In this document: positions 1-16,952 of the stretch, in pieces | How the letters are laid out: every line of letters starts with the position of its first letter | How positions within the stretch are numbered: the stretch's first letter is position 1 | DNA from: a virus | DNA length: 20,042 bases | IMG/VR virus record: IMGVR_UViG_3300049783_001710 | Span: 1-20,042 of that record | Direction: 5' to 3' (one strand) | Position numbers and translations under genes: made by a program | Notes under the pieces: model-generated | What the model was told of the DNA's origin: nothing | The model's input: the letters and a program-made list of their open reading frames with translations, nothing else | The model's database searches: none

Positions 1-3000
1 AAGGCCACCTGACAGCACCGGAGCACACCTGATGCCGATTGTCAGCATGTCGATAGTTTCGATGTAACCGTCAACTATCAAGTCACCGTCTGCACGAATA
101 AACGCCTCAGTAAGGGCCGCTTGGAACGCGGTGTCCGTACCCAGACCGTAACGAACAGCAGCAGCAGCATAAGCAGCGTTAGGCGTCGTGTGTGTTTCAA
201 GCGCCCAGTGTTGCAAGTAAGAAGGCAACGCCCTAGCAGGACGCCAGAAGCGCACAGGGCTGGTGCCAGTTCTCAAGGCAGGGCTAGCGGCGGTTGGCTC
301 ATAGCATAAGTATGTCCCACTGTCTGTAGCAACCCAGAGCATGCTCACGTCTGCCGATACAGTAGCATTTTCAGCCTCTGGTCGTGTGTCGAACACACGA
401 CCAGCAAAAGCATCGCGCCACTCACCAGCCGTTCCTCCTGCGTTAACAGTAAGAACCTGATTTGCTACGCCCAGCGTAGCAGGAATAGATTCTGCTATAT
501 CTACACCATCAACAGTTCCGGTGACTGTGATATTACCTGTTACGCCAAAGCCGAGTGGCATTGTAAGTGCACCTGCGCTGGATATTCTCATAGGAATGAT
601 AGCACCTGCACGGAAACGTAGGCTGTCACCCCCATCAACGTCAATGGTTTGACCATTAGTCCCGTTTACAGCTTGAAACTGTAATTCGCCGCCCTCCGCG
701 CCGAAGTTACCGAGTGTAAGCCTACCGTCGATAATAGCACTACCGAAACTTACATCATCATCTGTCGCGAGGCCTTGGTTTATAGCGTCAAGTTTTGTAC
801 CATCAGCACTTAGATTACGGGTGTCAACAGTACCAGTAACTGCAATGTTACCAGCAATGTCTAATTTTTCAGTAGGGACAAGCACTCCAATACCAAGGTT
901 ACCATTGTCGAAAACAGCCCACTCTTGGTTGTTAGCGACGTCGCCTTCTCCAAAAGCAATCGCATTGTCTGTTGTACCAGTCCCAGAGCGTAACTCAATC
1001 CACTGTTGGGCTGTACCACTAGTGTCTACACCTGACTCCAGTCTGATAGCTGTGTTGTGCCATTTGGTTGTAGCCGCCACCGCGTTTCGAACGGTGCTTA
1101 CGTTAAAGCTTCGTTCGTTAGGGACGGCTCCCTCAAATCTAGCCAGTGGGACTTCGGAGTCATCAGCGTCATTAATAGTTGTAGGATTATTGACGTGGAA
1201 TAGCCCAGCTACCTCAACACCCTCTAAAGCTGACAGAGTGCCGTTCACCCGAGTTAAAGCAACACCATCAGCATCATCGCTGGCAACACCTAAGTTAAGT
1301 GTACGTGTCGAAGCGTCTATCTGAAACGGGTAAAATAGTGCACCAGTGCCGTCCGTTGCACCAATGTATAAGTCGTCGTTGGTTTCTCTATGACGCAAGT
1401 AGAATGCGCCCGCGTTTTGAACATTTATTGCTCCTGCGTACATGGCTAGGTTGCTGTATAAAGCAGCGTTGGTGTCATCTAGAGTAAGCAACGCACTGCC
1501 GCTGTTAGTTTTGACTCGCAGGCGGTTCGCTGTACCGAGGTCTAAGACAACATCATCAACACTTTGCCATAAGATAGCATCACCAACCGAAGAGCCTAAT
1601 GATAGTGTACCATCGAGCGTGATGTCGCCGCCGAGCGTAGTGTCACCGTCTACAGTGAGATTAGTAGTAGAATACATACCAGTGAGGCCGATGCCGCCTG
1701 TCAGAACACCACCTCTATAAACGTACATACCCTCGCCTATATTGGGGTCAACGTTGGTTGCAGTTCCACGGTTCCAGCGCAAGCCGTAAGCAACCCCTTT
1801 AGTGGAAGTTGAGCTCCCGTCGTCTCCAGAATAGCCAGTATCCATACCCCAAATTGGGCCAGCCCAATCACCGTTGCCGGCTGCGGGGTCTTTGTCGCGA
1901 TAGTTACTGATGAGTCCGGCGGGCGACTGGATTGTTCCGGTTGCCTCAATCAGGCCTGTCACAACAATCCCAGTAGTTGTGACAGTCGCCTTAACTTGGT
2001 TATTTGCCCAAAGCTCTAGGATGCCGTCGCCGTTTTGTGCAATACCCGTGTCGCTGTCGCCTATTGCTAAGGCCGCGTTACGCGCGGCAAATGTTCCTCC
2101 AGGAGTAGCACCACCGATGCCTGCATTACCGCTTACTAGGATATCGCCCGTTACATCAACACCCGTGGCCTGAGTTACGAGCTTCTGAGCACCGTAATGA
2201 TAAAGGCGAACTTTACCCGTTGCGCCGTCTAGCCTGATGTAATCGGTCAGGCCGAGTGAGTTATCGTCTCCTTGAAGGATGGTATCTCCGCCAGTAGCGG
2301 CGTTGTTGATAAACAGATCGCCAGTGTCGCTAGCGATATAACTATTAGTACCATCATGTCGTAGGGACAGGTCAGGACCGTCGCCGATGTTGACGCGGGA
2401 GTTGTCACCTACGCCTATGTTACCAGTGACACCTAAGTCTCCGGTTATATCAACACCGCCAGCAGATAATAGTCGCATGGACTCGCTTAATGTGCTGCGG
2501 TAAAACACTGTGTCGTTTGCAAGTGTGCCACCTGATGCGTAAATTTCTAAGTCTTTGGTAGTGACGTTTTTACCTATTGACGCACGGTCTTGCCCAACAC
2601 CTATAGCAGTACCAACAGTTATAGTGGTGTCAGCGCTAGCACCAAAAACACTCAAGTCACCCGATACATCCACACCCGTGGATTTGGTTGCGAACTTCTG
2701 AATGCCATAGTGATAAAGGAGAACTTCGCCGGACGCGCCGTTCGCGATGAAGTAATCTGTGAAGCCGCCTGCACCATTATCAGATTTGATGCGGACGTCT
2801 TGATTATCCGCGTTGTTCTGTATGGTCAAATCACCAGTTGAGTTCAGGATAATGCTGTTGGCTTGGTCGTGGTACAGTCGTAAGTCGTTGTTATTGCCGA
2901 TGTATATGCGCGAGTCGTCAGGGACGTATACATCTCCTGTAACATCGAGATCGCCCGTAACAGTAACTCCATTGACATCAACGCGTGCCTTCTCGACACC

Positions 3001-6000
3001 ACCAACTGCAAACGTAGTGAGTGCGGATATGATCTCAAGTTGTGCAAGATCAACTGTGCCCCAACCCGAAAGTATCAGATTCCCGTTATCAGTAGCGCCT
3101 CCAGGTGCTTGGGCTTGAATATATAATTTGCCGCCCGAAGCCACTATTCTGTGTGTGGCTGAGTTATCGGTCTCGCTGAAAATAAGCTTTGGCTGCGCCG
3201 ATGAGATTGTTATGTCGCCAGAAGCAATGGTACCTGTTAAGGCAATGTTACCGGCAATGTCTAATTTTTCAGTAGGGTTAAGTACGTTGATACCGAAGTT
3301 ACCATTGTCGAAAACAGCCCATTCTTGGTGGAAGCCGGCGTCGCCTTCTCCAAAAGCAATCGCATTGTCATTTGTGCCGTTACCGCTTCGGAGTTCAATC
3401 CACTGTTGGGCGGCGTCGGTGTCACCTACATTTGATTCTAGTCTGATAGCTGTGTTAAACCATCCGTCAGAAATCAACTCGTTTCGGCGGGTACTTACTT
3501 TGAATTTTCGTGGGTTGGGGACAACTCCCTCAAACGTAGCCAGTAGAATTTCGGAGTCAGCAGCATCACCAATAGCGGTAGGATTATCGACGTGAAGTTG
3601 GTCTGTTAACGTCGCCGTCGCGAAACTTACATCATCATCTGTCGCGAGGCCTTGGTTTATAGCGTCAAGTTTTGTACCATCAGCACTTAGATTACGGGTG
3701 TCAACAGTACCGGTGACAGTGATGTCACCTGTGACGTCAAATCCAGTAGCCTTGGTTGCGAACTTCTGAGAACCGTAGTGATAACCACGGAGTTCTCCAG
3801 TTGCGCCGTGAGCCAATAGGTAGCTCACGACACCATCATCAGTTACATTATTTCCTTGGATCACTACGTTTGCATTTACAGTGGTATTAATGAGAAATAA
3901 ACTGCCGGTAGTACTAGCTATGACGCTATTTGTTCCATTATGCTGGATGGAGAAGTCGTTACCCCCACCCATGTAAAGGCGTCGACTGTCGTCTAGGAAC
4001 AAATTCCCAGTAAGATCGATGTCATTAAAGATAACATCATCTGTCGTCGAAACTCCTTGGTCAAAGCCAAGGGTAGCTGGAGTAAGAGTGGTTGATGCAA
4101 GACCGGTAATATGCCCATAAGTATCAAGGGTCACGTCTTGAATGACGGTTGCGGCGCTGTTATTAACTGAGGACTGACTGGAAGTATCTGTATGGCTAAA
4201 TACAGTTCCTGTAAGATCCAACCCAGCACCTGCGGTGAAAACAGCGGTAGAGGATATCTGAATAAATGTAATGTTAGTAGTACCAAACGTGATCGTACCG
4301 GGGGTGTTGCAGACGTATAGCTCACCAGCAGCAGTGTCGCCTTCGCTGACGAAGAACGCATCACCTTGACCCAAAGAGTCTGGGTCACTTGGAGCGTAGG
4401 AGTCGGTGTCTGCGGTACGAGTGAGTACCCAGTTTGTACTGGCAGAGCCTACAGTGGTTACACCGTAAATACCGTTTTGCGTGCCATCGGTTTGTCCATA
4501 GACCAAGACGCGGTCTTGAGCATTCAGAGATATCCCATCAGCTACAAAGGCAACCTGTGTGCCGGCGTTAGTCAGCGTTGCACCTACACCAGAAGACCCG
4601 TTGTTGTAGGTGCTTGTCTGATTGCCGATAGTTTCCGCTCTAACTGCCGTATGATAATGTATACCAGCCGCAGCAATTGTGTCAACATATGACTTGGTAG
4701 CAGATTGTAGTGCAGTAGTCGGATCAGCGTTTAGAATTAGGTTGCCAGTCATAGTCCCGCCAGTGAGCGGAAGGAGTCCGGCAAGTGCTGAACCATCGCC
4801 GGTGAAGTCTGTAGCGTTAACGTTACCATCAACGTCGAAATTGCCCAAGTCGTCAAGCGTAGCGCCGGGGTTTGAGCCGGTATCAACACCGGCTGTGACG
4901 TTTTCCCAAACAGAGAATCGCATTCTCGCGCCCGTGGTATCATCAGTATTAACGTCGATACGAGCAGCATTACCATCTTGACCGGGAATTTCATCCGCTT
5001 GGTTGAACGTGATGCTGGCGTTACCACCACCGTCGTTATTCGTTAGAGCCACTTTGTTCGCTATGACATTACCCGCAGAATACATACCAGCGACGCCGAT
5101 GCCACCGCGTAGTGTTCCGCCCGTATAGACATATAGACCCTCAGCGACTTCGGGAATCGCAACCGACGACCCTGCTCGGTTCCAACGCAATCCAAAAGCG
5201 CCGGTAGCTAGTGAGTTCGCACCGCCAGTTTCACCAGTAAATCCATCATCCATACCCCATATTGGGCCACCCCAAGTATTGTTGTTTGTGTCATCATAAT
5301 TGCCGATAAACCCGCCTTGAGCTTGAAATTGACTTGATGCACTAATTCCGAAAGTTGTGACAGTCGCCCTAACTTGGTTATTTGCCCAAAGCTCTAGGAT
5401 GCCGTCGCCGTTTTGTGCAATACCGGTGTCGCTGTCGCCTATTGCCAAGGCTGCGTTACGCGTTGCCAAAGTTCCTCCAGGGACAACACCCAAGCCTACT
5501 TGGCCTTGATCGAAGAGCGCTGTGGCAGCGACCGTATCTACGTCAAATAAGCTGGCGTTCACCGAATCCCGAAGACGGAAACGGGAAGTTCTCAAAAAGG
5601 ACTCATCGGGTGTAGTTGCGTGTGAACCACCGAAGAGTTGAAGCAAAGCACCTGTGCCGGTGGTTGAACCCCATAAATTAAGACTTGAAGCGGCGCCGAT
5701 CTGACTGATAGTAGTAGTGTTGATCGCATTGAAAGTTACAGTATTGGTCGTCGCAAGACCTTGATTGATGAGGTCAAGTTTTGTTTTATCTGCCCCAGTC
5801 ATTAATCCTGCAAGTGATATGGTTGCTGCCGGAAGTGTTGCATTTGTTCCATCACTTGATGTAATTGTGCCCGACGACGCCGCGGCAGTGTAGCCCAGAT
5901 TAGTCGTAACATTTGTTGCTTTTGCGGTGTTTAATGCAACTGCACTATCTATATCGGATAAAACAGACGAAAGAAATCCAGCTGTCGAATTTGCCAGAGT

Positions 6001-6189
6001 AGAAGAATCTACTACAAGATTATCTTCCGTAACTTCTTTTATAGTGACGATGGTTTCTGCGCCATCATTTTTTTTGATAAATATGGTGCCGTCAAATGTA
6101 TTGATAGCAACTTCGCCCAAATCAAGCTGCAGTGTAGTAGGAATTTTCCCTGACACGGCACTTCTGCGCAGTTTAATGTCTGTAGTCAT
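1..6189 (-). CDS. giant modular tail fibre / adhesin, 3' end cut by window edge
   Basis: An ATG at 6189 opens a frame that I translated codon by codon to base 1 without a stop: 2063 codons, with the C-terminus outside the window. An AGAGGG ribosome site lies four bases upstream. Residues 1-45 form a fibre-anchor type N-terminus (LRRSAVSGKIPTT, then GEVAINTFDG). Residues about 474-655 hold a module common in marine phage fibres, with PLTGGTMTGN, ATKSYVDTIAAAGIHYH and QGDAFFVSEGDT. The rest is built of repeated beta-type modules: GDSDTGIAQNGDGILELWAN (about 240-280 and 1362-1407), GPIWGMD..GLRWNR (305-373 and 1440-1517), QWIELRSG..PTEKLDIAGN (864-989 and 1663-1800) and YHYG.QKFATK (three copies). 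Residues after about 1914 are not repeat-like. Likely role is host attachment, as part of a long fibre; that is inferred from modules. DNA from about 5700 leftwards is GC-richer than the baseplate genes. No chaperone or cleavage domain is visible before the edge. Confidence 0.85.
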   Translation of the reverse strand, partial: MTTDIKLRRSAVSGKIPTTLQLDLGEVAINTFDGTIFIKKNDGAETIVTIKEVTEDNLVVDSSTLANSTAGFLSSVLSDIDSAVALNTAKATNVTTNLGYTAAASSGTITSSDGTNATLPAATISLAGLMTGADKTKLDLINQGLATTNTVTFNAINTTTISQIGAASSLNLWGSTTGTGALLQLFGGSHATTPDESFLRTSRFRLRDSVNASLFDVDTVAATALFDQGQVGLGVVPGGTLATRNAALAIGDSDTGIAQNGDGILELWANNQVRATVTTFGISASSQFQAQGGFIGNYDDTNNNTWGGPIWGMDDGFTGETGGANSLATGAFGLRWNRAGSSVAIPEVAEGLYVYTGGTLRGGIGVAGMYSAGNVIANKVALTNNDGGGNASITFNQADEIPGQDGNAARIDVNTDDTTGARMRFSVWENVTAGVDTGSNPGATLDDLGNFDVDGNVNATDFTGDGSALAGLLPLTGGTMTGNLILNADPTTALQSATKSYVDTIAAAGIHYHTAVRAETIGNQTSTYNNGSSGVGATLTNAGTQVAFVADGISLNAQDRVLVYGQTDGTQNGIYGVTTVGSASTNWVLTRTADTDSYAPSDPDSLGQGDAFFVSEGDTAAGELYVCNTPGTITFGTTNITFIQISSTAVFTAGAGLDLTGTVFSHTDTSSQSSVNNSAATVIQDVTLDTYGHITGLASTTLTPATLGFDQGVSTTDDVIFNDIDLTGNLFLDDSRRLYMGGGNDFSIQHNGTNSVIASTTGSLFLINTTVNANVVIQGNNVTDDGVVSYLLAHGATGELRGYHYGSQKFATKATGFDVTGDITVTGTVDTRNLSADGTKLDAINQGLATDDDVSFATATLTDQLHVDNPTAIGDAADSEILLATFEGVVPNPRKFKVSTRRNELISDGWFNTAIRLESNVGDTDAAQQWIELRSGNGTNDNAIAFGEGDAGFHQEWAVFDNGNFGINVLNPTEKLDIAGNIALTGTIASGDITISSAQPKLIFSETDNSATHRIVASGGKLYIQAQAPGGATDNGNLILSGWGTVDLAQLEIISALTTFAVGGVEKARVDVNGVTVTGDLDVTGDVYVPDDSRIYIGNNNDLRLYHDQANSIILNSTGDLTIQNNADNQDVRIKSDNGAGGFTDYFIANGASGEVLLYHYGIQKFATKSTGVDVSGDLSVFGASADTTITVGTAIGVGQDRASIGKNVTTKDLEIYASGGTLANDTVFYRSTLSESMRLLSAGGVDITGDLGVTGNIGVGDNSRVNIGDGPDLSLRHDGTNSYIASDTGDLFINNAATGGDTILQGDDNSLGLTDYIRLDGATGKVRLYHYGAQKLVTQATGVDVTGDILVSGNAGIGGATPGGTFAARNAALAIGDSDTGIAQNGDGILELWANNQVKATVTTTGIVVTGLIEATGTIQSPAGLISNYRDKDPAAGNGDWAGPIWGMDTGYSGDDGSSTSTKGVAYGLRWNRGTATNVDPNIGEGMYVYRGGVLTGGIGLTGMYSTTNLTVDGDTTLGGDITLDGTLSLGSSVGDAILWQSVDDVVLDLGTANRLRVKTNSGSALLTLDDTNAALYSNLAMYAGAINVQNAGAFYLRHRETNDDLYIGATDGTGALFYPFQIDASTRTLNLGVASDDADGVALTRVNGTLSALEGVEVAGLFHVNNPTTINDADDSEVPLARFEGAVPNERSFNVSTVRNAVAATTKWHNTAIRLESGVDTSGTAQQWIELRSGTGTTDNAIAFGEGDVANNQEWAVFDNGNLGIGVLVPTEKLDIAGNIAVTGTVDTRNLSADGTKLDAINQGLATDDDVSFGSAIIDGRLTLGNFGAEGGELQFQAVNGTNGQTIDVDGGDSLRFRAGAIIPMRISSAGALTMPLGFGVTGNITVTGTVDGVDIAESIPATLGVANQVLTVNAGGTAGEWRDAFAGRVFDTRPEAENATVSADVSMLWVATDSGTYLCYEPTAASPALRTGTSPVRFWRPARALPSYLQHWALETHTTPNAAYAAAAVRYGLGTDTAFQAALTEAFIRADGDLIVDGYIETIDMLTIGIRCAPVLSGGL
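744..834. repeat. direct repeat copy 1 (91 bases identical to 3621-3711)
   Basis: These 91 bases are identical, base for base, to 3621-3711. Both encode the segment TRNLSADGTKLDAINQGLA followed by TDDDVSF, in the same frame of the giant fibre gene. The distance between copies is 2877 bases, exactly 959 codons. Confidence 0.95.
841..1200. repeat. imperfect repeat of 3241-3597 (QWIELRSG module)
   Basis: The block aligns with 3241-3597 at an offset of 2400 bases, changing to 2397 near 1084 through a one-codon difference. Long identical stretches occur (for example 29 bases beginning at 930), separated by clusters of changes. It encodes the HVNNPT...QWIELRSG...AIAFGEGD...PTEKLDIAGN module. Confidence 0.9.
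1976..2105. repeat. near-identical repeat of 5354-5483 (ALAIGDSDTG module)
   Basis: Matches 5354-5483 with only a few changes, including an uninterrupted run of 55 identical bases. Encodes NAALAIGDSDTGIAQNGDG followed by ILELWANNQV. Copies are 3378 bases (1126 codons) apart. The neighbouring GPIWGMD..GLRWNR segment is also shared, but more diverged. Confidence 0.95.
3241..3597. repeat. imperfect repeat of 841-1200 (QWIELRSG module)
   Basis: Other copy of the module, encoding HVDNPT...QWIELRSGNGTNDN...PTEKLDIAGN. Changes are concentrated in a few clusters, as expected if older divergence is mixed with conversion between copies. Confidence 0.9.
3621..3711. repeat. direct repeat copy 2 (91 bases identical to 744-834)
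   Basis: Second copy of the 91-base identical repeat. In the protein it precedes the QWIELRSG module, whereas the other copy follows the second QWIELRSG module, so the two copies flank a large in-frame block. Confidence 0.95.
5354..5483. repeat. near-identical repeat of 1976-2105 (ALAIGDSDTG module)
   Basis: Upstream copy (in transcription sense) of the ALAIGDSDTG module within the giant fibre gene; same frame and direct orientation as the other copy. Confidence 0.95.
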
Positions 6190-6240: not shown

Positions 6241-7779
6241 TTAGTAAGATCCTCCGTCTACTGCGGTAATAGTAACAGCTCCAGCAGCAACAGCGAAATT
6301 AGCAGAGTTGAAAGATGCAACACCTTTGACCGAATTAGTAGCGCTAATTCCTGCCAGAGTGACGGCAGCATTTTCCCCAGTTCCTGTGACACTCAATCCC
6401 GTTCCCGCAGTCACCGCGATACTACGGACATAGTTACCAGTAGTATCGGTTCCAAGTGCAATTGAATTTGGCTGAATGGTGGTCACCATATTGACATTAC
6501 CCGAGCCATCAAAGGATACTGCTGCTGCAACTACATCTCCGGACATAGAAAAGTTTCTGCTTGTAGCAAGAGTGGTAGCAGTAGAAGCATTGCCCGTCAA
6601 TGCGCCCTCGAATGATGTAGCTACGAATGTTTCGGCGCCGACGGTCCATTTTTCAGCAGTTTCATCCCATACAAGAGTTTTATTAGGAGAAGTACCTCTT
6701 TCGATCTCGATTCCGCCGTTCTGAGAAGGTACTCCCGCTTCGTCGCTATTAAGCAATATTATAGCATCGCCGATATTGACTTCATTGGAATTGACTGTGA
6801 ATGTGGTACCATTAACTATCAAATCGCTCGAGATTGTTACCGTGCCAGTTCCATTTGGCGTAAGTACAATGTCGCCGTTAACATCCGTAGAAGATATAAT
6901 ATTCCCGTCGATTGCAATGTTATCTACCGCGAGACTCGTAAGGCCACTTACATCGCTGTCAAGTGAGTAACTGACCTGGTTATTAGTAACGGTAGAAGTA
7001 ATATTATTTCCACCGTCAAATGTCAATGTATCTGCGCTTGTTACAGTATCAGTGCCGGTATCGCCCGCTATTAAAAGATCGGTTGAGATCGAAGCTGTGC
7101 TTACTGCGGTCAGTCGTCCTTGCTGATCGACAGTAAATGTTGGAATTTGAGTCGTTGATCCATATGACGCAGGGGTTACAGCGGTATCATCAAGATCAAC
7201 GAAGATAGAATTGTTGGCTACCGTTGTCGTGATACCCGACAGACCGATAAAGTCGAGTGTTTGTCCGTATCCTATAGAATCCGCAGTTCCAGTATCTGCG
7301 GCAACAGTAAAGATAACAGCACCAGTCGTTACATCATCTACATATTGCTTTGTTGCAGCATGTTGTGGTGCAGTGGGATCAATGACATTTATTATCTGCG
7401 AAGTGCTTGCATCAATCGAGCCCGTACCGGCAGGAGAAAGTACAATGTTGCCGTTTGTGTCTGTCGACGCTATGGAATTTCCGTTGATAGTTATATTATC
7501 AACATTTAAAATGTCAATTTTACTATTAGAATCGACAATAATAGCACTATTTGCTGTCAGTGTTCCTGGTGTGTGATCTAATTTGCTTGTGAAATATTTA
7601 CCACCGATTATTTCAATGTTGGCGGCGTCTCCTGCAGTTTCTACCCCAGTTCCTATATACAAACGGTCGCCGCCATTTGACGGCGTTCCCGCTAAATAAG
7701 AATAAGCAACTTCGCCTTGAGCGAGTGAAGTAGGCGATCCTGTTGCGGCCGACCGTTTAACTCTAATAATTGATGCCAC
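6241..7779 (-). CDS. fibre-like virion structural protein, 512 aa, GTG start
   Basis: The protein starts with GTG in a TAGTG overlap with the stop of the preceding gene; a strong GGAGGTC site seven bases upstream supports this start. The N-terminus (IIRVKRSAATGSPTSLAQGE, then DRLYIGTG) has the same plan as the start of the giant fibre downstream, and is typical of marine phage virion proteins. Further along are ATKQYVDD (about residue 140), a GGIEIERGTSPNKTLVWDE segment (about 350) and a C-terminus ending in VKGVASFNSANF..TAVDGGSY. Two internal modules are duplicated: VDN.xI.GN.I.STD.NG.IVL.P.GTG (about 92-125 and 284-317) and a DTGT..TLxF.G..xIT.TV.NN segment (about 157-195 and 234-274). Low complexity, rich in Thr, Ser, Val and Asn, no membrane segment. 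Likely a fibre or fibre-connector component; exact position in the tail is unknown. Confidence 0.85.
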   Translation of the reverse strand: MASIIRVKRSAATGSPTSLAQGEVAYSYLAGTPSNGGDRLYIGTGVETAGDAANIEIIGGKYFTSKLDHTPGTLTANSAIIVDSNSKIDILNVDNITINGNSIASTDTNGNIVLSPAGTGSIDASTSQIINVIDPTAPQHAATKQYVDDVTTGAVIFTVAADTGTADSIGYGQTLDFIGLSGITTTVANNSIFVDLDDTAVTPASYGSTTQIPTFTVDQQGRLTAVSTASISTDLLIAGDTGTDTVTSADTLTFDGGNNITSTVTNNQVSYSLDSDVSGLTSLAVDNIAIDGNIISSTDVNGDIVLTPNGTGTVTISSDLIVNGTTFTVNSNEVNIGDAIILLNSDEAGVPSQNGGIEIERGTSPNKTLVWDETAEKWTVGAETFVATSFEGALTGNASTATTLATSRNFSMSGDVVAAAVSFDGSGNVNMVTTIQPNSIALGTDTTGNYVRSIAVTAGTGLSVTGTGENAAVTLAGISATNSVKGVASFNSANFAVAAGAVTITAVDGGSY

Positions 7780-8075
7780 TAGAAATGACCTCCATTGACT
7801 GTTTGTTTTTCAAGTAATGTTGTGGCCAAGAATTTTTCTTCTATTTCATCATATACTAGTACTGATCCGTCAACCGCGTTGCTGGTATCTACGTCCACCA
7901 AGGCGCCCAATGTACGCCCAAAAAGATTAGATTGATTCATACTGACTTGATTTCTATTAGTAGGTTCTGAAACTACTGTTCTCGGCGACGTGGATTTTAC
8001 TTTTAATGATCCGTCATCCGCGCTAAGTCCTGAAACTACTGTTCTCGGTGATGATGATTTTACTTTTACCGGCAT
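7779..8075 (-). CDS. small virion protein with tandem N-terminal repeat, 98 aa
   Basis: The ATG at 8075 is preceded by TAGGAG at a normal distance. The N-terminal third is a 21-residue tandem duplication: KVKSSSPRTVVSGLSADDGS followed by KVKSTSPRTVVSE. The C-terminal half (LGALVDVDTSNAVDGSVLVYDE..) matches a segment I recognise from small structural proteins of marine T4-like phages, in which a 'L.DVD...DG..LVYD' strand pattern leads to a short tail ending in NGGHF. The gene sits between the 111-residue protein and the GTG-start fibre protein, overlapping the latter by one base, which suggests coupled translation and a shared structure. The function is not established; a linker or adaptor in the tail is only an inference from position. 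Confidence 0.75.
   Translation of the reverse strand: MPVKVKSSSPRTVVSGLSADDGSLKVKSTSPRTVVSEPTNRNQVSMNQSNLFGRTLGALVDVDTSNAVDGSVLVYDEIEEKFLATTLLEKQTVNGGHF
7787..7793 (-). promoter_or_regulatory. strong ribosome binding site for a GTG start
   Basis: GGAGGTC on the minus strand, seven bases before the GTG at 7779 and inside the end of the preceding gene. It fixes the start of the 512-residue protein at a non-ATG codon and supports coupling with the overlapping TAG stop. Confidence 0.8.
7967..8068. repeat. 63-base tandem duplication in the 98-aa gene
   Basis: The 39-base core at 7967-8005 recurs at 8030-8068 with few changes. The period is 63 bases, or 21 codons, giving the duplicated KVKS.SPRTVVS segment. 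Confidence 0.9.
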
Positions 8076-8508: not shown

Positions 8509-8976
8509 TTATAATGTCGCTTGCTCTGCAATTATCCAAGCTGCTTTGATAGCAGCTTCAGATAGGTCCGCATCTGGCGCAACCCTAGAAACAGTTTCTG
8601 CAAATATCGCCACTAATCCAATTGTTTTTGATTGTGAGAATGTTGCTGCGCTGCGCTGCGCTTTAATCTGCGCGTACAATGCGCGATCAGTAGATTTCAA
8701 TTCTGTTTCAAGTGCGGCCCACACGTCGTCTAGTCCCGTGTATGCAAGCAGGTATTCAAATCTGCGAGTCGACAGGTTGCTGGGGTAGTATGTTGGTGGA
8801 GTTGGCGCAATGTAAACGGAGGCGTTCGGACTCATGTCATCAAATAATGCTACCACATCAAACTCCGCACCATTATCGAGTGGGTCGCAAGTAAACGGTA
8901 TCCAACCATATATAGGGTGTTTAATCTCGCAATCAATTAAACCGTGTTTTGTGAATGTAGGGTTGCGGTACTTCAT
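8509..8976 (-). CDS. tail-fibre accessory/assembly-like protein, 155 aa
   Basis: The start overlaps the stop of the 481-residue fibre gene by one base (TAATG), so the pair is probably translationally coupled. The N-terminal part (NPTFTKHGLIDCEIKHPIYG, then WIPFTCDP) is of the sort seen in small proteins encoded just after tail-fibre genes. After a Pro/Tyr-rich linker (IAPTPPTYYPS, about 57-67) comes a helical C-terminus (STRRFEYLL...GLDDVWAALE..) with a pattern recurrent in phage fibre-accessory proteins: an Arg-rich start, a 'GL.D.V.A.L' helix, and an Ala-rich end. The coding DNA is markedly richer in G+C than the baseplate genes, like the 3' half of its partner. Likely helps fold, cap or attach the preceding fibre; that role is inferred from position and pattern only. 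Confidence 0.75.
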   Translation of the reverse strand: MKYRNPTFTKHGLIDCEIKHPIYGWIPFTCDPLDNGAEFDVVALFDDMSPNASVYIAPTPPTYYPSNLSTRRFEYLLAYTGLDDVWAALETELKSTDRALYAQIKAQRSAATFSQSKTIGLVAIFAETVSRVAPDADLSEAAIKAAWIIAEQATL

Positions 8977-10421
8977 TATGATATCCTCAGGAATAATGTG
9001 GCGCGGTTATAATCAGAAGCAGTACTTAAGGTTACTGAGCCCATCGCGCGCCAAGTCCCCGTGTTGTACGCGTCACCGCGTGCTAGTCCAGTCGATGTAC
9101 CAGCTATTGTTGTGTTAAGTGTTGTCGTAGAAGCTGTGCCGTTTACACCAGAGTTCAAGAGCGTCGAGCCCGCATAAGTGTTGCCTGCGACAACACCACC
9201 GGTACCTGTGCGGACCAAGAAAGCATAAGTTCCAACGGCACCAAACGAGAGTGCGGCATTAAGCACTCCGATATCTATATCAGCGATTGCTGCTTGAACA
9301 AAACTAGCGGTCGCAATTTGTGTAGTGTTTGTCCCAAGTGCTGCTGTTGGAGCAAGCGGTGTGCCGGTGAAGTTAGGACTGATTTTAGGAGACTTCGAAT
9401 CCAATTGAGATTGAATGTTAGCTGTTACGCCTTGTGTTCGGTTCAAGTCCGTAAAGGTTGCAGTAACGCCGTCTAACGAATTAAGTTCCGCTGCTGTTGC
9501 GGTCACTCCGTCTAGTATGTTAAGTTCCGCTGCTGTCGCTGTTACGCCTGCAAACAGATTGAGTTCCGCAGTGGTTGATGTCACGCCGTCTAGTATGTTA
9601 AGTTCCGCTGATGTCGCTGTTACGCCGTCTAGTATGTTAAGTTCCGCTGATGTCGCTGTTACGCCGTCTAGTATATTCAACTCACCGGCAGTAGATGTGA
9701 TCACTGTGCCGCCAATAGACAAAGAACCGCTAATTTCAACATCGCCAACTACATCTAGTTCAGATGAAGGGCTGGGGTTATGAATACCTACTCGACCCAA
9801 ACTAGTTATAACAAAGGGGTTGGTATCAGGGGTAAAACTATCCTCAACAACGAAGGCATTGCCTGTGCCTGTCTGAGTAATGCGCACCGCATCGGAGGAA
9901 TCGTCTACCTCTAGTCTAACAACACTAATCAAATCAAGTATGCCATCTGTGCTTGAAAGATTTCCATTCAACAGTATATTGGTCGCAGATAGAGTCAGAT
10001 CATTCACTGTAGTTAAAGTAGTCGAGTCCGAAGTAAGTGAAAATGATTGAGATGTTGCTGTTATGACATCTGTACTTAGTACGAAAGTATTAGCAGTAAT
10101 AGAATTACTGGTGTGATTTGATATCGTTTCAAGTGCTGTGAAATTAGTGTTTGCTGTAAATGATGCGGCAGATATTATAGATAATGCAGCTGGTGTTGTT
10201 ACGGTACCTCCTCTTAAAGAAGTTCCCACTGCAACTACAGAAGCGGAAAATATTCCTACTAGAGATGTGTTACCAGTAGTGGTTCCGCCAGAAACAGTTG
10301 TTTCGGCGGAAAGTACTTTCGAGCCCATATCACTTGATAAATTATTTGTTCTTTCAAACCAATCGCCAAAGGTATTGACATTTTTATCTAGTACATTGCT
10401 GAGGTAGGAAGGTATAGCCAT
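8976..10421 (-). CDS. tail fibre-like protein with 13-residue repeats, 481 aa
   Basis: The ATG follows directly on the stop of the 80-residue gene (TAAATGG). Residues 1-45 (MAIPSYLSNVLDKNVNTFGD, then WFERTN) are an anchor-like start; residues about 45-190 are Ser/Thr/Asn-rich beta-type sequence. A GRVGIHNPSPSSELDVVGD motif (about 210), frequent in phage fibres and trimeric adhesins, is followed by seven 13-residue repeats of the form AELNILDGVTATS (about 240-330). Then comes NFTGTPLAPTAALGTNTTQI (about 350), a well-known tail-fibre motif, and a C-terminus ending TGTWRAMGS...ATLFLRIS, seen at the ends of phage fibre proteins. Probably a homotrimeric short fibre or fibre tip. Its 5' part is AT-rich and its 3' part GC-rich, suggesting a swapped distal end. 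Confidence 0.85.
   Translation of the reverse strand: MAIPSYLSNVLDKNVNTFGDWFERTNNLSSDMGSKVLSAETTVSGGTTTGNTSLVGIFSASVVAVGTSLRGGTVTTPAALSIISAASFTANTNFTALETISNHTSNSITANTFVLSTDVITATSQSFSLTSDSTTLTTVNDLTLSATNILLNGNLSSTDGILDLISVVRLEVDDSSDAVRITQTGTGNAFVVEDSFTPDTNPFVITSLGRVGIHNPSPSSELDVVGDVEISGSLSIGGTVITSTAGELNILDGVTATSAELNILDGVTATSAELNILDGVTSTTAELNLFAGVTATAAELNILDGVTATAAELNSLDGVTATFTDLNRTQGVTANIQSQLDSKSPKISPNFTGTPLAPTAALGTNTTQIATASFVQAAIADIDIGVLNAALSFGAVGTYAFLVRTGTGGVVAGNTYAGSTLLNSGVNGTASTTTLNTTIAGTSTGLARGDAYNTGTWRAMGSVTLSTASDYNRATLFLRIS
9442..9714. repeat. 39-base tandem array (seven units) in the fibre gene
   Basis: Units begin at 9442, 9481, 9520, 9559, 9598, 9637 and 9676, a strict 39-base period. 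Each encodes 13 residues of the form AELNILDGVTATS. Units at 9598 and 9637 are virtually identical, while the outer units are degenerate, which suggests slippage expansion from the middle. Confidence 0.95.
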
Positions 10422-10673: not shown

Positions 10674-13600
10674 TTATTTCTGAAGTGCTATTGCTCTTAA
10701 GCTACTTGCTCTTGGATATATCGCAGTATTGGTACTGGACATGCCTATCTTAAGTTGGAATTCACTATACCGGCTGTATATCTCCTCTATTGCGGGAGAC
10801 ACCGTACCATTACCGTCAGAAGGCCCAGTTGCAGTAAATGTATCACCCACGACATTTGACCCCGCTCCAAAGTCAGTAAAGTCTGTCGACCCAGTTGTCA
10901 CTATTATATAATTTGTACTTGCAGTCATTCCAGAACCTTCTATAACTGCAGGATTGCCTGATGTTGTATATTGGATGACTCCAGTATCGCCTTCACCAGT
11001 GAGAAATTCTACCGGTACTGTATAAGTTGTATCGATGAAATTATCTCTATTCACACTAGAAGAAACTGCGTTTTTACTAGAATACATTTCAAACCACGGT
11101 CTATCATTCAGTTCCGTTATATCAGCATTATTTTTAATTCTAGCCCATACTTGTATAGCAGTGCCTTCAGGTCGATATTCTTGTAGCTGTACAAGTAAAT
11201 CCTCCGCAATATTATCATCGGACAACTCAATAATTTTTGAAATGTATTTACTGTTAAGATTACCGCCCTTTGGAAGCAATTCACCAGTTGTGTCATTGTT
11301 CAATTGGTTGCCTGTTAATACAACACCCAAAATTGCTTCGTCCAATACTGGAGATAAATACTCAGATTCAGATGTAATTGACGCATCTATCGAAAGTGAT
11401 TTCGCGCCGCTGAGAAGTCTCACTTCTTCCGATCTTGAAAGTACATTTTTAACAGTAGAAAACTCGTAATCCTCGTTTGGATAAATTGATATTTTAGAAC
11501 CTATGGTAGTTCCTTCTGTAGCCACAATTTCAAATTGTATATCAGTAAGTCCGTCGAATTTTAGATAAGATGGTCTTATTGTCGCGGATGAATATTCGTG
11601 AACGCCAAATTGGTCTATGGTATGTGCAGGAACGAGTGTTGTGTTTGCCAACGCCAGTCCAACTGGTAACGTTATAGTACCAGTAGGTGCGTACGGGTTG
11701 GGAACAGATGAACCTGCGCCTGCATATGTTACTGATAGTTCTGTGCCGTTCAATATAGTCTTATGGCGATCAGGAAGAATTGATCTTATAGATGAACCGA
11801 CAAAAAACTTACCGTTTGAGTGGGTAATATCGAATTTGAAATTAGTTGTATCTATACTGTCAACTATACCTGTGCCGAAATCGACTGAAGATATAACACC
11901 TGTATCTCTTACTGTAGCAGTAAGCCCTTCATATATAGTCACGGTAGAATTAGCAATAAAATCAAATCCGCCCATGAAAATATCGGTGCCGTCTATATTT
12001 ATGATTGTCGACGATGTATTACTTGTTCCATCCACAATAGTATCACCAACCTGCAGAATACCAGCACCATCAATTGCTATATTGAGTATTTCTGCGCCTC
12101 TGACGGGTTCGCCTTCTCTAAAGAACACTGTCGGAAATGCATCATTGTCCGTGATGAATTCCACGTCTTCTATATAAAAATTGGCTACCGAAGTTATTGG
12201 AGCTGTCGCTGTCGCACCAGTACTCATGCGATTGAACCTGATTTTCAAATCAATATCAGGAACTATGTCCCAGTTTAAGTTATTATTTGTGGTATAGAAT
12301 GTTCCAAATTGCCCACGGTTTGTTACAGGATTGCCCGAAGCAACATCAGTTCCGCCAAGACGAGATACCCAGAAATACGTGTCGGGGTTGAGACCTTCTG
12401 TGTGTATAACAAAGGCGTATTGTGTATTGTTATATAGGAATACAGGCGAGTCAAAGTTTACATTAGTTGCGTTTGCAATACCGTCGTTGCTGATATTCAG
12501 TCGGGTGTCATTGCGATTCATCCATACAACACTATACGGAATAGTAGTTCTTGTAATGCCACCCGCACTATTCATTTCACGAAGTTCAAACCAAACGCCG
12601 AGGCTTGGGTGGATTGCAGAAAGCCAGATATCTATTGAACTTAAGAAAACGCCCTCGACATCTTCGTCCTCGTCTACAAATATCGAATACGCCGCGCAAG
12701 ACGGTCCGACTTCGAACCAGCCCGCAGGAGACTTGGTAGATCTTTGTATCGATCTGGTTCTGCTGTCAATAACTTCTCTTCTTTCGACACTTTGTGTTTT
12801 AGTAGAGATAATTGTATTCTGTTTTTGCAGATTCAATCCTGAAGCAATAAAAGAACCTTTACTGTAGCTCGAAGCATCCGTATCATTTGTAGGACTATCT
12901 GTTATTATGATTTCCTTTTCGCCAACCCGGAACCGCTTGTTGGTACCGTTAGGTAATCTCATGAATATAAGAACTTCGCCGTTGCTGTTTGAAAATACAC
13001 TCGATCCCTCAGTTCCTATATTCGAAAGATCAGTATCATAATCAAGATAACCTGTGGTTTTATCTTGACTTGCATCAAAGTATTGCGACACCACTACTGG
13101 AGCAGCAAAGTCATTCATATTCTCACCGTCAAAAAAGACATGGTATCGTGTATTTGGTTTTAGGCCATAAGAATATAGCTTTAAAGTTTGTGCTCTTATA
13201 TATGGTATCAGGGAAATATCTGTTACAAAATTACCTAGGTCGTATGACTCGGTTTCAGTAGAAATAGTGGTTTCGATATTTGTTCTTTGTTCTTGTATTG
13301 TTTCTTCTGTGGTTACTTTACCACCATAAACAATGAACATGCGGGTCGATGAATAATCATCAATTTGGTTCCGGAAAGATATATCTTCGAATGTTGAGCC
13401 ACTGTCTATTTTGGCTTTTACTGACGCAACAGCGTCGCCTCTAAAACGGCCTCTCGCCGCTACAAATTCTGTAACTTCTTGGATTGTGCTGAATGTTCTA
13501 AGTAATTTTTCATTGCCGTTGAAGTGCTTAACGCCGCCCTCGCGATGGTAAACTTTATAGACATTGGATGAAGTACCAGATATGGCACCCGTGCCTATTT

Positions 13601-16600
13601 TTTGCCAAGCACCTATTTCAGTCGAAACTACTCTTGACTCTGGCACGTCATTGCCAAAATCAAAAGTTTTATCTACGGTCGTTGTGTCCGCCCAAGTATC
13701 AATATCAGGATATACACTCATGCCACCAATAAAACGATAAGAACTAAGTTCCACATTTCTTGTAGTCGTCGCGAACAGTTGTTCTTTCAAGACCTTTTCG
13801 ACATACGGTATATGAACCAGAGCTCCGGTCTTTGCAGCAGTGAACGCGCCACCTGCATTGGGGTTAAATCTGGTATCAAATCCCTCCACCACAATCGGAG
13901 GTTGGATAGATTTATCTTTTCTATTCACAGCAATGTTATAATCTGAATTTGTTATATCTGAAAGTGTATGATCGACGAAAGGGTTGATAAACACGCCATT
14001 TTTAAATCTATCAAGTCCATTCTCGTCTAATACTAAAAGATCAAGAGTATTTTTCTCAAGTAAACTAAGAGCATTATAATACTCAAGGTTCTTTACTCTT
14101 TGTTTTATAGCGCCAATATCGGACATTGTATGTCTGCTGAATGTTATTTTATCAGAAACAACACCTTCTTCTTTTCTTCCTAATATCTTAGCATAGTTTT
14201 CAGACAGAGAAGGAAACGGTGGGATGAAAATGTTTGCAATGGACATATATGTCTCAGGAACAGTAGGAAACATAGGATATATGCTAGACTGACCTTTGAA
14301 AACTTTAAAATCGCCATTCGGTTTGACTGCAAGAATATCTCTTCTTGCAAGATAATATGAATAATCGAACTTTAGATTTGTCCCGGGTACTGGTGTTTTA
14401 TATCCGCCGGCGGGTATAGTAAATGCAACAGATTCTACTGGGTTGCTAGGAGCAGTTCCTATTGAAGTTCCTGTTACTACGGTTGGAGCTGTGACTGTAC
14501 GGAAATCTATGTAATTTCTCTGTATTGTATCGAGATCTTCTGTCTTCACGGTCGTGTTAGATTCTATAGCATCATCGATAGGATAAGAATCTATAGAGAA
14601 ATACGATCCACTGCCAGCAAGATCAGGCTCATAGTAATCAAAGATGATTAGGAGATGATCCGATGTGGTAATAGGCGTATCAGTTACTGTAAAAGATGTG
14701 CCGTATGAAAATTCGCTTTCATTTTTTCCTAAAACAAATCTGCTCGTTACATCTTCGCCGTCCGTGATTAGCGTGATGTCAGAAGTATGTTTTCTTACTT
14801 GGCGTATTTTTATAGCATCAGGTACTCCTAGGAAGAACTTCTCAAGACTTCCATAACTAGAACCATCAATTTTAACATATCTACTTGATCTGATGGTCTT
14901 TGATCTCTCTGATGTCAGATCTTTAATTGCGCGATATGAAAGCTTACTCGCTGTTGCGATAGAGAAGGTTTCTCCCAAATCAATCGAAATAGAGGTCGGA
15001 GTTGCTGTTACGACTCTTATCGCGCCCGTTCCATATCCTTTCGAATTTAAATCTATCAAATCTCCAGAAACATAACTCTTCGTCCATGCTGCTCCAGACG
15101 CGGTCGAAATAGCATTTGAAATAAGTGTCATTGACAAGTTACTCTCGATGCTTTGAATGATATAAGAGTTTGTAGCTATAACGAATCTGTCGCCCAGATT
15201 TAGATTGTTAAAGTTTGTTCCGACACCAGTAACAATAGGCGATCCTGTAGTCACGGAAACTGTTCCCGTGCCGGTAATAGTCACGCCGCCTGTGACATGC
15301 AGAATTATAGTTTCCTTTGCAAGAGATGCGAGGGTACCCGTGCCGTAAATGAGTGTTTCATTCACGCCCAAAGAAACAACGCCTGATAGAAGACCTGCTG
15401 TGCTTATAGTACCCGTTCCTTGCTTCATAAAAGTAAGAGTAGTGTCGGGGTCGCCTAGGTCATTCTTCACACTTTTAGTATAATCATTACCCACATATAT
15501 TAATCTGGATAAATTGGCCGAATCGTAAAGAATAGCTGCTCCATTTTCGAGTTTCACATCAGCAAAGAAATTCGACGTTTTAATCGCTCGAACACTAGCA
15601 AAAATCTGCCCAGCATTCATTTTTATATCGCCAAGATAAAATCTTACTGTTGCTGATGGCTGGCCATATTGCCCGCTTTCTTCAACAAAAGAAATAAGTC
15701 TTGCCGTGCCTATCTGCGTTCCTGCTGCCGCATCGTCAAAAGCGCTTGAGTAAGTTATACGATTCTCAGCAGTATCATAGAGTTGAACTGTATTGTATGA
15801 ATCAGGTTCTGGCATACCCATAATCTCGTTAGCAAGAACATGAGCGCCAGAAGGAATGAATGAATATTGATTATCTATGAAAACAGAACTGGATGATTTA
15901 TCTGTTTCTATAGGTCTAGTAGAAACGGTTTCTACTTCATAACCTTTCACATAAGCAAGACCCTTTTCAAGTTCTATGACTAATTTATCAGAGTCTCCGC
16001 CCTCGGTTTCCGAAAATCTACCACCATTTGAACCGGTGTTCAAATGCTCTCTAGTTCTAATGTCCCATCCTCTCACGACATAATCGCCTGATTCGTTGAA
16101 AGTTCTTTTTGCAAGATCGTCAGCAATTTCATTATATATTGTCTTTTCACTTTTGATATAGATCTGGCCTTCACGAAGTTCTAAAAGAACAAAATTGCTG
16201 TCATCCGCGAGGTCTACGTCCAAATTAGATACATTCAGTGTCAGGTTGCATCGAAGTCTATCCGCGCCTGGTGCGTTGAAGTTATTATAACCCTGTGCAT
16301 TATCTAATAGAGTACTATCTTCATCAGAATTGACCGTGACGAATTCTGCACTCATATACACGCGCTTGTTTGCTTTTGAATTGAAAGTATCTATAGCAAT
16401 TTTTTGCGTGTCGAATTTAACAAAGAACCCATTTACATAAAGAACACCCTCGGTGATGCCAAATATGGAACCTTTGCCTGTTATATTTACAAAAGTCGTA
16501 CTAAAAGAGCCTGTAGCGGTCGCCGTTGTATATGAAATATTCTCGCTTGTAAAAGCAACTACCGATTCGCTATTATTCAAATCCGTGTAATTTATAAAAA

Positions 16601-16952
16601 GAACAGATACGCCAACTTCAGAAGGATCTGCTTCGGCATGAATTACTCTTGCTTTCAATCCCGTGACTGCACCTACCAATTCGCCGCCTACCATATCAGG
16701 AATATCGTTGATGTTAATTTGAACACGGACGTAATCTACTGGATCTTGGGGGTCGAAAGTGCCACCCAATACCCGCGATCCATTTTGGAAGATATGATCA
16801 CCGAATCTTTCAACCTGATTTTGAAGTATTGTTTGAAGTTGAGTTAATTCTCTCGCTTGTACCGCAAGCCCTGGCTTGAAAAGAACCCGGTGATAATTTT
16901 TATCTTCGTCGTAATCATCGAAATACGGTAATCTGTTTAGATCTATTGTCAT
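10674..16952 (-). CDS. DUF4815-type giant tail/baseplate structural protein, 2092 aa
   Basis: The N-terminus (LNRLPYFDDYDEDKNYHRVL, then FKPG.AVQARELTQLQTILQ) is the hallmark of the DUF4815 family of large phage tail proteins. The second family hallmark follows at about 939-970 (SRHTMSDIGAIKQRVKNLEY), leading to LSLLEKNT and DRFKNGVFINPF. In between, about 561-625, is a GTGTVSV..SPIVTGVGT.F module. Residues about 1408-1576 look like a beta-sandwich with SSIDIWLSAIHPSLGVWFEL and a later PVFLYNNTQYAFVI strand, a pattern shared with other marine phage tail proteins. The C-terminus (EFQLKIGM...LRAIALQ) is also typical, but it is interrupted by an extra repeat (see findings). No transmembrane or signal sequence. 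Position after gp8 fits a baseplate-attached fibre or whisker-like structure; in T4 this place is held by gp9-gp12, to which no clear similarity is seen. Confidence 0.85.
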   Translation of the reverse strand: MTIDLNRLPYFDDYDEDKNYHRVLFKPGLAVQARELTQLQTILQNQVERFGDHIFQNGSRVLGGTFDPQDPVDYVRVQININDIPDMVGGELVGAVTGLKARVIHAEADPSEVGVSVLFINYTDLNNSESVVAFTSENISYTTATATGSFSTTFVNITGKGSIFGITEGVLYVNGFFVKFDTQKIAIDTFNSKANKRVYMSAEFVTVNSDEDSTLLDNAQGYNNFNAPGADRLRCNLTLNVSNLDVDLADDSNFVLLELREGQIYIKSEKTIYNEIADDLAKRTFNESGDYVVRGWDIRTREHLNTGSNGGRFSETEGGDSDKLVIELEKGLAYVKGYEVETVSTRPIETDKSSSSVFIDNQYSFIPSGAHVLANEIMGMPEPDSYNTVQLYDTAENRITYSSAFDDAAAGTQIGTARLISFVEESGQYGQPSATVRFYLGDIKMNAGQIFASVRAIKTSNFFADVKLENGAAILYDSANLSRLIYVGNDYTKSVKNDLGDPDTTLTFMKQGTGTISTAGLLSGVVSLGVNETLIYGTGTLASLAKETIILHVTGGVTITGTGTVSVTTGSPIVTGVGTNFNNLNLGDRFVIATNSYIIQSIESNLSMTLISNAISTASGAAWTKSYVSGDLIDLNSKGYGTGAIRVVTATPTSISIDLGETFSIATASKLSYRAIKDLTSERSKTIRSSRYVKIDGSSYGSLEKFFLGVPDAIKIRQVRKHTSDITLITDGEDVTSRFVLGKNESEFSYGTSFTVTDTPITTSDHLLIIFDYYEPDLAGSGSYFSIDSYPIDDAIESNTTVKTEDLDTIQRNYIDFRTVTAPTVVTGTSIGTAPSNPVESVAFTIPAGGYKTPVPGTNLKFDYSYYLARRDILAVKPNGDFKVFKGQSSIYPMFPTVPETYMSIANIFIPPFPSLSENYAKILGRKEEGVVSDKITFSRHTMSDIGAIKQRVKNLEYYNALSLLEKNTLDLLVLDENGLDRFKNGVFINPFVDHTLSDITNSDYNIAVNRKDKSIQPPIVVEGFDTRFNPNAGGAFTAAKTGALVHIPYVEKVLKEQLFATTTRNVELSSYRFIGGMSVYPDIDTWADTTTVDKTFDFGNDVPESRVVSTEIGAWQKIGTGAISGTSSNVYKVYHREGGVKHFNGNEKLLRTFSTIQEVTEFVAARGRFRGDAVASVKAKIDSGSTFEDISFRNQIDDYSSTRMFIVYGGKVTTEETIQEQRTNIETTISTETESYDLGNFVTDISLIPYIRAQTLKLYSYGLKPNTRYHVFFDGENMNDFAAPVVVSQYFDASQDKTTGYLDYDTDLSNIGTEGSSVFSNSNGEVLIFMRLPNGTNKRFRVGEKEIIITDSPTNDTDASSYSKGSFIASGLNLQKQNTIISTKTQSVERREVIDSRTRSIQRSTKSPAGWFEVGPSCAAYSIFVDEDEDVEGVFLSSIDIWLSAIHPSLGVWFELREMNSAGGITRTTIPYSVVWMNRNDTRLNISNDGIANATNVNFDSPVFLYNNTQYAFVIHTEGLNPDTYFWVSRLGGTDVASGNPVTNRGQFGTFYTTNNNLNWDIVPDIDLKIRFNRMSTGATATAPITSVANFYIEDVEFITDNDAFPTVFFREGEPVRGAEILNIAIDGAGILQVGDTIVDGTSNTSSTIINIDGTDIFMGGFDFIANSTVTIYEGLTATVRDTGVISSVDFGTGIVDSIDTTNFKFDITHSNGKFFVGSSIRSILPDRHKTILNGTELSVTYAGAGSSVPNPYAPTGTITLPVGLALANTTLVPAHTIDQFGVHEYSSATIRPSYLKFDGLTDIQFEIVATEGTTIGSKISIYPNEDYEFSTVKNVLSRSEEVRLLSGAKSLSIDASITSESEYLSPVLDEAILGVVLTGNQLNNDTTGELLPKGGNLNSKYISKIIELSDDNIAEDLLVQLQEYRPEGTAIQVWARIKNNADITELNDRPWFEMYSSKNAVSSSVNRDNFIDTTYTVPVEFLTGEGDTGVIQYTTSGNPAVIEGSGMTASTNYIIVTTGSTDFTDFGAGSNVVGDTFTATGPSDGNGTVSPAIEEIYSRYSEFQLKIGMSSTNTAIYPRASSLRAIALQK

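Follow-up and report, generated by a model that had tools for sequence, protein, structure and literature searches.

In-frame repeats in a giant modular tail-fibre gene of a T4-like phage and their plausible role in changes of fibre length

The fibre locus

The window considered here is an entire IMG/VR virus record of 20,042 bases, itself a fragment, in which a giant tail-fibre ORF starts at position 6189 of the minus strand and leaves the contig at position 1. The gene is thus 3'-truncated; at least 2063 aa are encoded and the C-terminus is absent. Partial tblastn matches link the ORF to annotated tail fibres of Roseobacter, Synechococcus, Prochlorococcus, and Pelagibacter phages. Alignment of its N-terminal domain gives 77% identity to the contig L004 and 64% to L005, and the domain is also present in hundreds of other contigs. 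Homology to annotated tail fibres, a conserved N-terminal domain of the attachment type, and internal module families in several copies (A twice, B three times, D twice, and linker E three times) identify the product as a modular tail fibre, with joints of the VTGxIxVTGT type recurring between modules. The fibre genes are accompanied by a baseplate wedge gene and by tail genes of the T4 type, which places the source among T4-like (Straboviridae/Kyanoviridae-type) myoviruses, and the other neighbours in the window are fibre and fibre-assembly-like proteins. The gene preceding the giant ORF, which served as the query for related loci, has 397 relatives in IMG/VR, the best being L004 at 75%; a plasmid search with the same gene gave no matches. 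The features are as follows.

1..6189, minus strand: giant tail-fibre ORF (from the ORF list), 2063 aa seen; N-terminal virion-attachment-like domain, then beads and linkers
5725..5796, minus strand: linker E copy 1, diverged, TKLDLINQGLATTNTVTF; 64-65% nucleotide identity to copies 2 and 3
5354..5483, minus strand: module A copy 1, conserved first part, GGT..RNAALAIGDSDTGIAQNGDGILELWANNQV; 92.3% identical to 1976-2105; full module extends to about 5053 at lower identity
3724..4011, minus strand: module B copy 1, aa 727-822; self-matches; phrog_29834-like region
3621..3711, minus strand: linker E copy 2, aa 827-857, GTVDTRNLSADGTKLDAINQGLATDDDVSF; flanked by a B and a D module; 100% identical to 744-834
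3223..3600, minus strand: module D copy 1, aa 864-989, about 126 aa; follows linker copy 2
2632..2919, minus strand: module B copy 2, aa 1091-1186; self-matches; phrog_29834-like region
2119..2406, minus strand: module B copy 3, aa 1262-1357; self-matches
1976..2105, minus strand: module A copy 2, conserved first part; full module extends to about 1645
823..1200, minus strand: module D copy 2, aa 1664-1789; followed by linker copy 3
744..834, minus strand: linker E copy 3, aa 1786-1816; immediately follows the second D module
744..3620, minus strand: block of 2877 nt (959 codons) that would be lost or doubled by one crossover at the identical linkers
6241..7779, minus strand: preceding fibre or structural gene, phrog_15769-like
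10674-16952: DUF4815 protein, by DUF4815 match
16968-18998: baseplate wedge subunit, phrog_438 match (E 1.6e-71); nearest are Caulobacter phage Cr30 and the Sinorhizobium phiM12 group

AlphaFold models of the modules (pLDDT 44 for module A; 61 for B-E-D, with the linker at about 42) are too weak for fold claims, and the B-E-D model hints at a shaft that may consist of beta-rich beads joined by short linkers. Within the fibre, a segment at 4195-4733 (aa 486-665) has about 70% protein identity to the tail fibre of Roseobacter phage CRP-603 and is common to many marine phages; from its sequence, this module looks horizontally exchanged. Smaller repeats lie elsewhere in the window. A 481-aa fibre-like ORF at 8976-10421 holds an array of 39-nt (13-aa) tandem repeats of the ATSAELNILDGVT type at 9409-9720, and a small ORF at 7779-8075 contains, at 7961-8068, a duplicate of 45 nt (87% identity) spaced by 63 nt, giving two SSPRTVVS-type segments.

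Repeated modules within the fibre gene

The initial annotation drew attention to two pairs of direct repeats, both of which sit inside the single minus-strand fibre ORF. The first, 744-834 and 3621-3711, is exactly as described, with 91 of 91 bases identical and a spacing of 2877 bases, or 959 codons. The second pair, 1976-2105 and 5354-5483, has the reported spacing of 3378 bases (1126 codons), but it agrees at 120 of 130 positions (92.3%) with a longest exact run of 55 nt, and the term near-identical is fair for its middle only. That both spacings are whole numbers of codons is true and carries no information, because two stretches of one ORF that specify the same peptide necessarily share its frame, so that their offset is always a multiple of three; the in-frame spacing is therefore not evidence of design. 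Further paralogy, absent from that annotation, comprises the module D pair, three copies of the roughly 96-aa module B, and the diverged third linker at 5725-5796. The D copies match each other in a blastn self-comparison at about 76% (75.7%) over 371 nt with gaps, at an offset of about 2400 nt, with dN of 0.25 and dS of 0.63.

The pairs can be set against a survey of exact repeats of at least 30 nt, lying at least 90 nt apart, in 341 distinct ORFs of at least 500 aa drawn from 170 related loci and the window. Such repeats occur in 54 of these ORFs, each time at an offset divisible by three, and the two longest are those of the window (91 nt) and L004 (92 nt), at unusually large spacing. Given the same peptide and the codon usage of this gene, 30 identical codons in the 91-mer have a probability of about 10^-14. 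The window repeats exceed chance.

Fibre length among relatives

The annotation proposed that recombination within either pair would keep the frame and produce shorter or longer fibres, and it suggested comparing fibre lengths among related phages. Lengths do vary: the 82 complete ORFs that carry this N-terminal domain encode fibres of 148 to 2625 aa (median about 466), and the fibre of L005, whose N-terminus is 64% identical, has 833 aa. In-silico removal of the 2877-nt or the 3378-nt block leaves a frame that is open, without stops, for 1104 or 937 aa, respectively, of the 2063 seen, and a few relatives do differ by a repeat unit.

The tempo of these changes can be gauged from contig pairs that share a repeat-bearing ORF, counting a change as at least 20 nt; the pairs are not independent of one another. 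Length changes occur in 0 of 25 pairs at 99% identity or higher, a comparison in which contig consensus hides minor variants, in 6 of 8 pairs at 95-99%, and in 11 of 13 at 88-95% (17 of 21 over 88-99%). Eighteen distinct indels reach 20 aa or more. Direct repeats flank three of them, each of which amounts to one repeat unit (L068, 70 aa; L045, 46 aa; L074, 34 aa), all in tandem units; the clearest is one extra 138-nt unit between L040 and L045. Random placements inside tandem arrays also land on repeats in a shuffled-position control, and flank similarity was used instead: it is 0.93, 0.80, and 0.67 at the three events, versus a background of about 0.4-0.5. Because the other 15 of the 18 indels have no flanking repeats, length may change mostly through illegitimate recombination or through exchange between phages. 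Among the 18 events, none is bounded by a dispersed repeat pair of kilobase scale. One apparent natural variant was set aside: L054 (2676-5633, 986 aa) seems shorter than L053 (3699-7223, 1175 aa), but its DNA is full length and 99.9% identical, and the shorter ORF reflects a premature stop from a small sequence difference, without deletion.

These observations bear on whether the repeats act as a live length switch, with populations holding long and short fibres that differ by 2877 or 3378 nt. The 91 nt of perfect homology between the linkers are ample for phage recombination systems, the recombination products are open, and long reads from populations of the Enterococcus phage EfV12-phi1 contained mixed copy numbers (PMC6365445). 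Against this stand the 25 near-identical pairs of equal length, a weak objection insofar as consensus would hide minor variants, and the lack of any kilobase-scale repeat-bounded deletion; no deletion variant of the window fibre, and no other short-fibre form of it, was found among IMG/VR contigs. A live switch is thus considered unlikely. The frame-keeping route to altered fibres stands as plausible and is supported over evolutionary time; present-day variability, the other half of the original proposal, is not supported, and a present-day switch is unproven.

Recent copying or conversion of the linker

Silent positions carry the evidence on the age of the linker pair. Synonymous divergence (NG86 dS) between copies reaches 1.6 or saturation in module B, against 0.83 in A and 0.63 in D; the 91-nt linker shows no such divergence. 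At least 120 viral contigs match a pattern written for the linker family, and nine other ORFs with two linkers have peptides that are alike, yet their DNA is 64-88% identical and lacks a long exact run. Protein-level constraint is thereby ruled out as the cause of the identical DNA. Since the same linker peptide diverges silently in other phages, the identity in the window points to recent copying or conversion, and the suggestion of recent duplication or ongoing conversion made from silent identity is borne out to this extent, with the nine control ORFs diverging freely at silent sites.

Among the two-linker ORFs compared, identical pairs occur only in the window and in L004, its closest relative. 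The latter has its own exact linker pair of 92 nt (14703-14794 and 16791-16882, VKALNQGVATTDSPTFAGATVTGDLGVSGNI), 2088 nt apart and of the same linker family. Over 72 nt, linker copies are 94-97% alike within each phage (94% in the window) and about 47% alike between the two. Likeness within a phage and difference between phages are what internal copying or conversion after divergence would predict. The parallel falls short of strict proof of concerted evolution, since position-by-position orthology between the window and L004 copies is unproven. A stronger version, in which ongoing gene conversion keeps the linkers identical in each phage so that they would serve as in-frame exchange points for beads in a self-maintained, permutable fibre in both the window and L004, is a doubtful extension of these data.

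A single segmental duplication does not account for the arrangement. The offsets differ among module A (3378 nt, 1126 codons), linker E (2877 nt, 959 codons), and module D (about 2400 nt, about 800 codons), and the order is swapped from E-D at the first site to D-E at the second, which together rule out one such event. Acquisition of the same donor segment twice from other phages, in place of internal copying, has some appeal: the first 40 or so residues of module A are found by themselves, at 65-83% amino acid identity, in ten further viral contigs, and the 70% identity of aa 486-665 to the CRP-603 tail fibre indicates that horizontal module exchange is real here. No donor is visible for the linker, however. 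A scan of 2.9 million viral contigs gave no exact match to its 41-nt core and none to its degenerate peptide pattern, and the greater likeness of the window copies to one another than to those of L004 is as internal copying predicts. No relative carrying the window's own repeats was found in IMG/VR by whole-fibre, D-module, or exact and degenerate linker searches. Double acquisition is accordingly rated quite improbable as the origin of the pairs.

Both contigs stop inside their giant fibre genes (window position 1 and L004:18581), and repeats breaking the assembly are possibly the cause. A mis-joined or collapsed gene arising from a short-read graph tangle at the 91-nt repeat, such as a tandem 2877-nt array read as one unit, would suit a metagenomic contig that ends in this way, as L004 does, and short-read assemblers cannot count copies of units longer than reads, but the reading frame stays open through both repeats over 2063 codons, the flanks of the two copies are different and coherent module sequence, and the independent contig L004 shows the same kind of pair, making an artefact very improbable.

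A model for fibre remodelling

The reading that best accommodates these results, and one in which confidence is fairly high, is that the ORF encodes a giant modular T4-like fibre shaft whose modules are copied, reshuffled, and exchanged, that the repeats are the most recent copies, and that recombination alters fibre length as strains diverge. On this reading, modules have repeatedly been copied and reshuffled within the gene and traded with other phages, and the 91-nt and 130-nt repeats are the latest copied, or gene-converted, pieces, corresponding to a linker and to the first part of a bead, respectively. Any two such copies could provide an in-frame site at which homologous recombination deletes or duplicates the intervening block. 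Fibre length and bead content would shift over the time scale of strain divergence, and selection on host attachment would presumably sort the resulting variants. For the particular pairs in the window, we infer both the recombination itself and its relevance to attachment.

Long in-frame repeats in giant fibre genes would ease changes in length and bead content, and they mark where to seek the fibre variants that decide which hosts can be attached to. The observed tempo, with no change at 99% identity or higher and change in most pairs at 88-99%, offers a rough clock of fibre remodelling in uncultured phages. The same kind of repeat also suggests a testable cause for a laboratory result published without a stated mechanism, namely that in EfV12-phi1.

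Comparison with known systems

A laboratory precedent comes from EfV12-phi1, in which an in-frame tandem duplication of 1.8 kb arose within a 6.6-kb tail-fibre gene (EFV12PHI1_98) during coevolution and was followed by MinION sequencing (PMC6365445). Each of the four coevolving replicates gained it and the phage controls did not; a single duplication was present in 852 long reads and none in 134, and two, three, and four duplications were counted in 32, 2, and 1 molecules, respectively (PMC6365445). The text of that paper makes no mention of recombination and gives no mechanism or junction coordinates (PMC6365445). Analysis of the ancestral gene itself (L176:4817-11434) reveals four clear internal repeats, at offsets of 405, 1403, 1866, and 3270, among them an in-frame direct repeat of 65% identity at 2582-2886 and 4448-4752 (L176:7398-7702 and 9264-9568), 1866 nt apart. 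The nearness of this spacing to the reported 1.8 kb makes the repeat a candidate cause of the duplication, possible but unproven. Like the window, EfV12-phi1 has a giant myovirus tail-fibre gene with internal in-frame direct repeats; unlike it, EfV12-phi1 belongs to an unrelated phage family with an unrelated host, its 1866-nt repeats are just 65% identical, and the changes recorded in it were duplications, whereas none was observed for the window phage.

Other systems differ in the scale and arrangement of what is duplicated. A 1996 study by Tetart et al. (J Mol Biol 258:726) is said to have found that duplication of a small domain within the gene for a T4-type long tail fibre changes host range. 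The duplicated gp37 domain is small and lies in the receptor-binding tip, whereas the repeats of the window belong to shaft modules and linkers and are separated by thousands of bases. In the accounts that cite this work, gp37 domain duplications widen host range (Tetart et al. 1996, as cited in PMC9004378 and PMC6957217). The crAssphage BACON tandem repeats in tail-associated proteins (PMC6949934) resemble the window fibre in that fibre-associated proteins have grown by repeated domain duplication, but they form a head-to-tail array of one named domain, stable at eight copies, in contrast to the dispersed and mixed modules here. Literature searches on variable length of tail fibres and on shuffling of their linkers brought up no closer system. 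The repeat-rich tail fibres of marine T4-like phages and relatives (IMG/VR loci L004-L173) share with the window the N-terminal domain, the gene neighbourhood, and the repeated-module architecture, and the window fibre is a well-marked example of the already known evolution of modular tail fibres by internal duplication and recombination.
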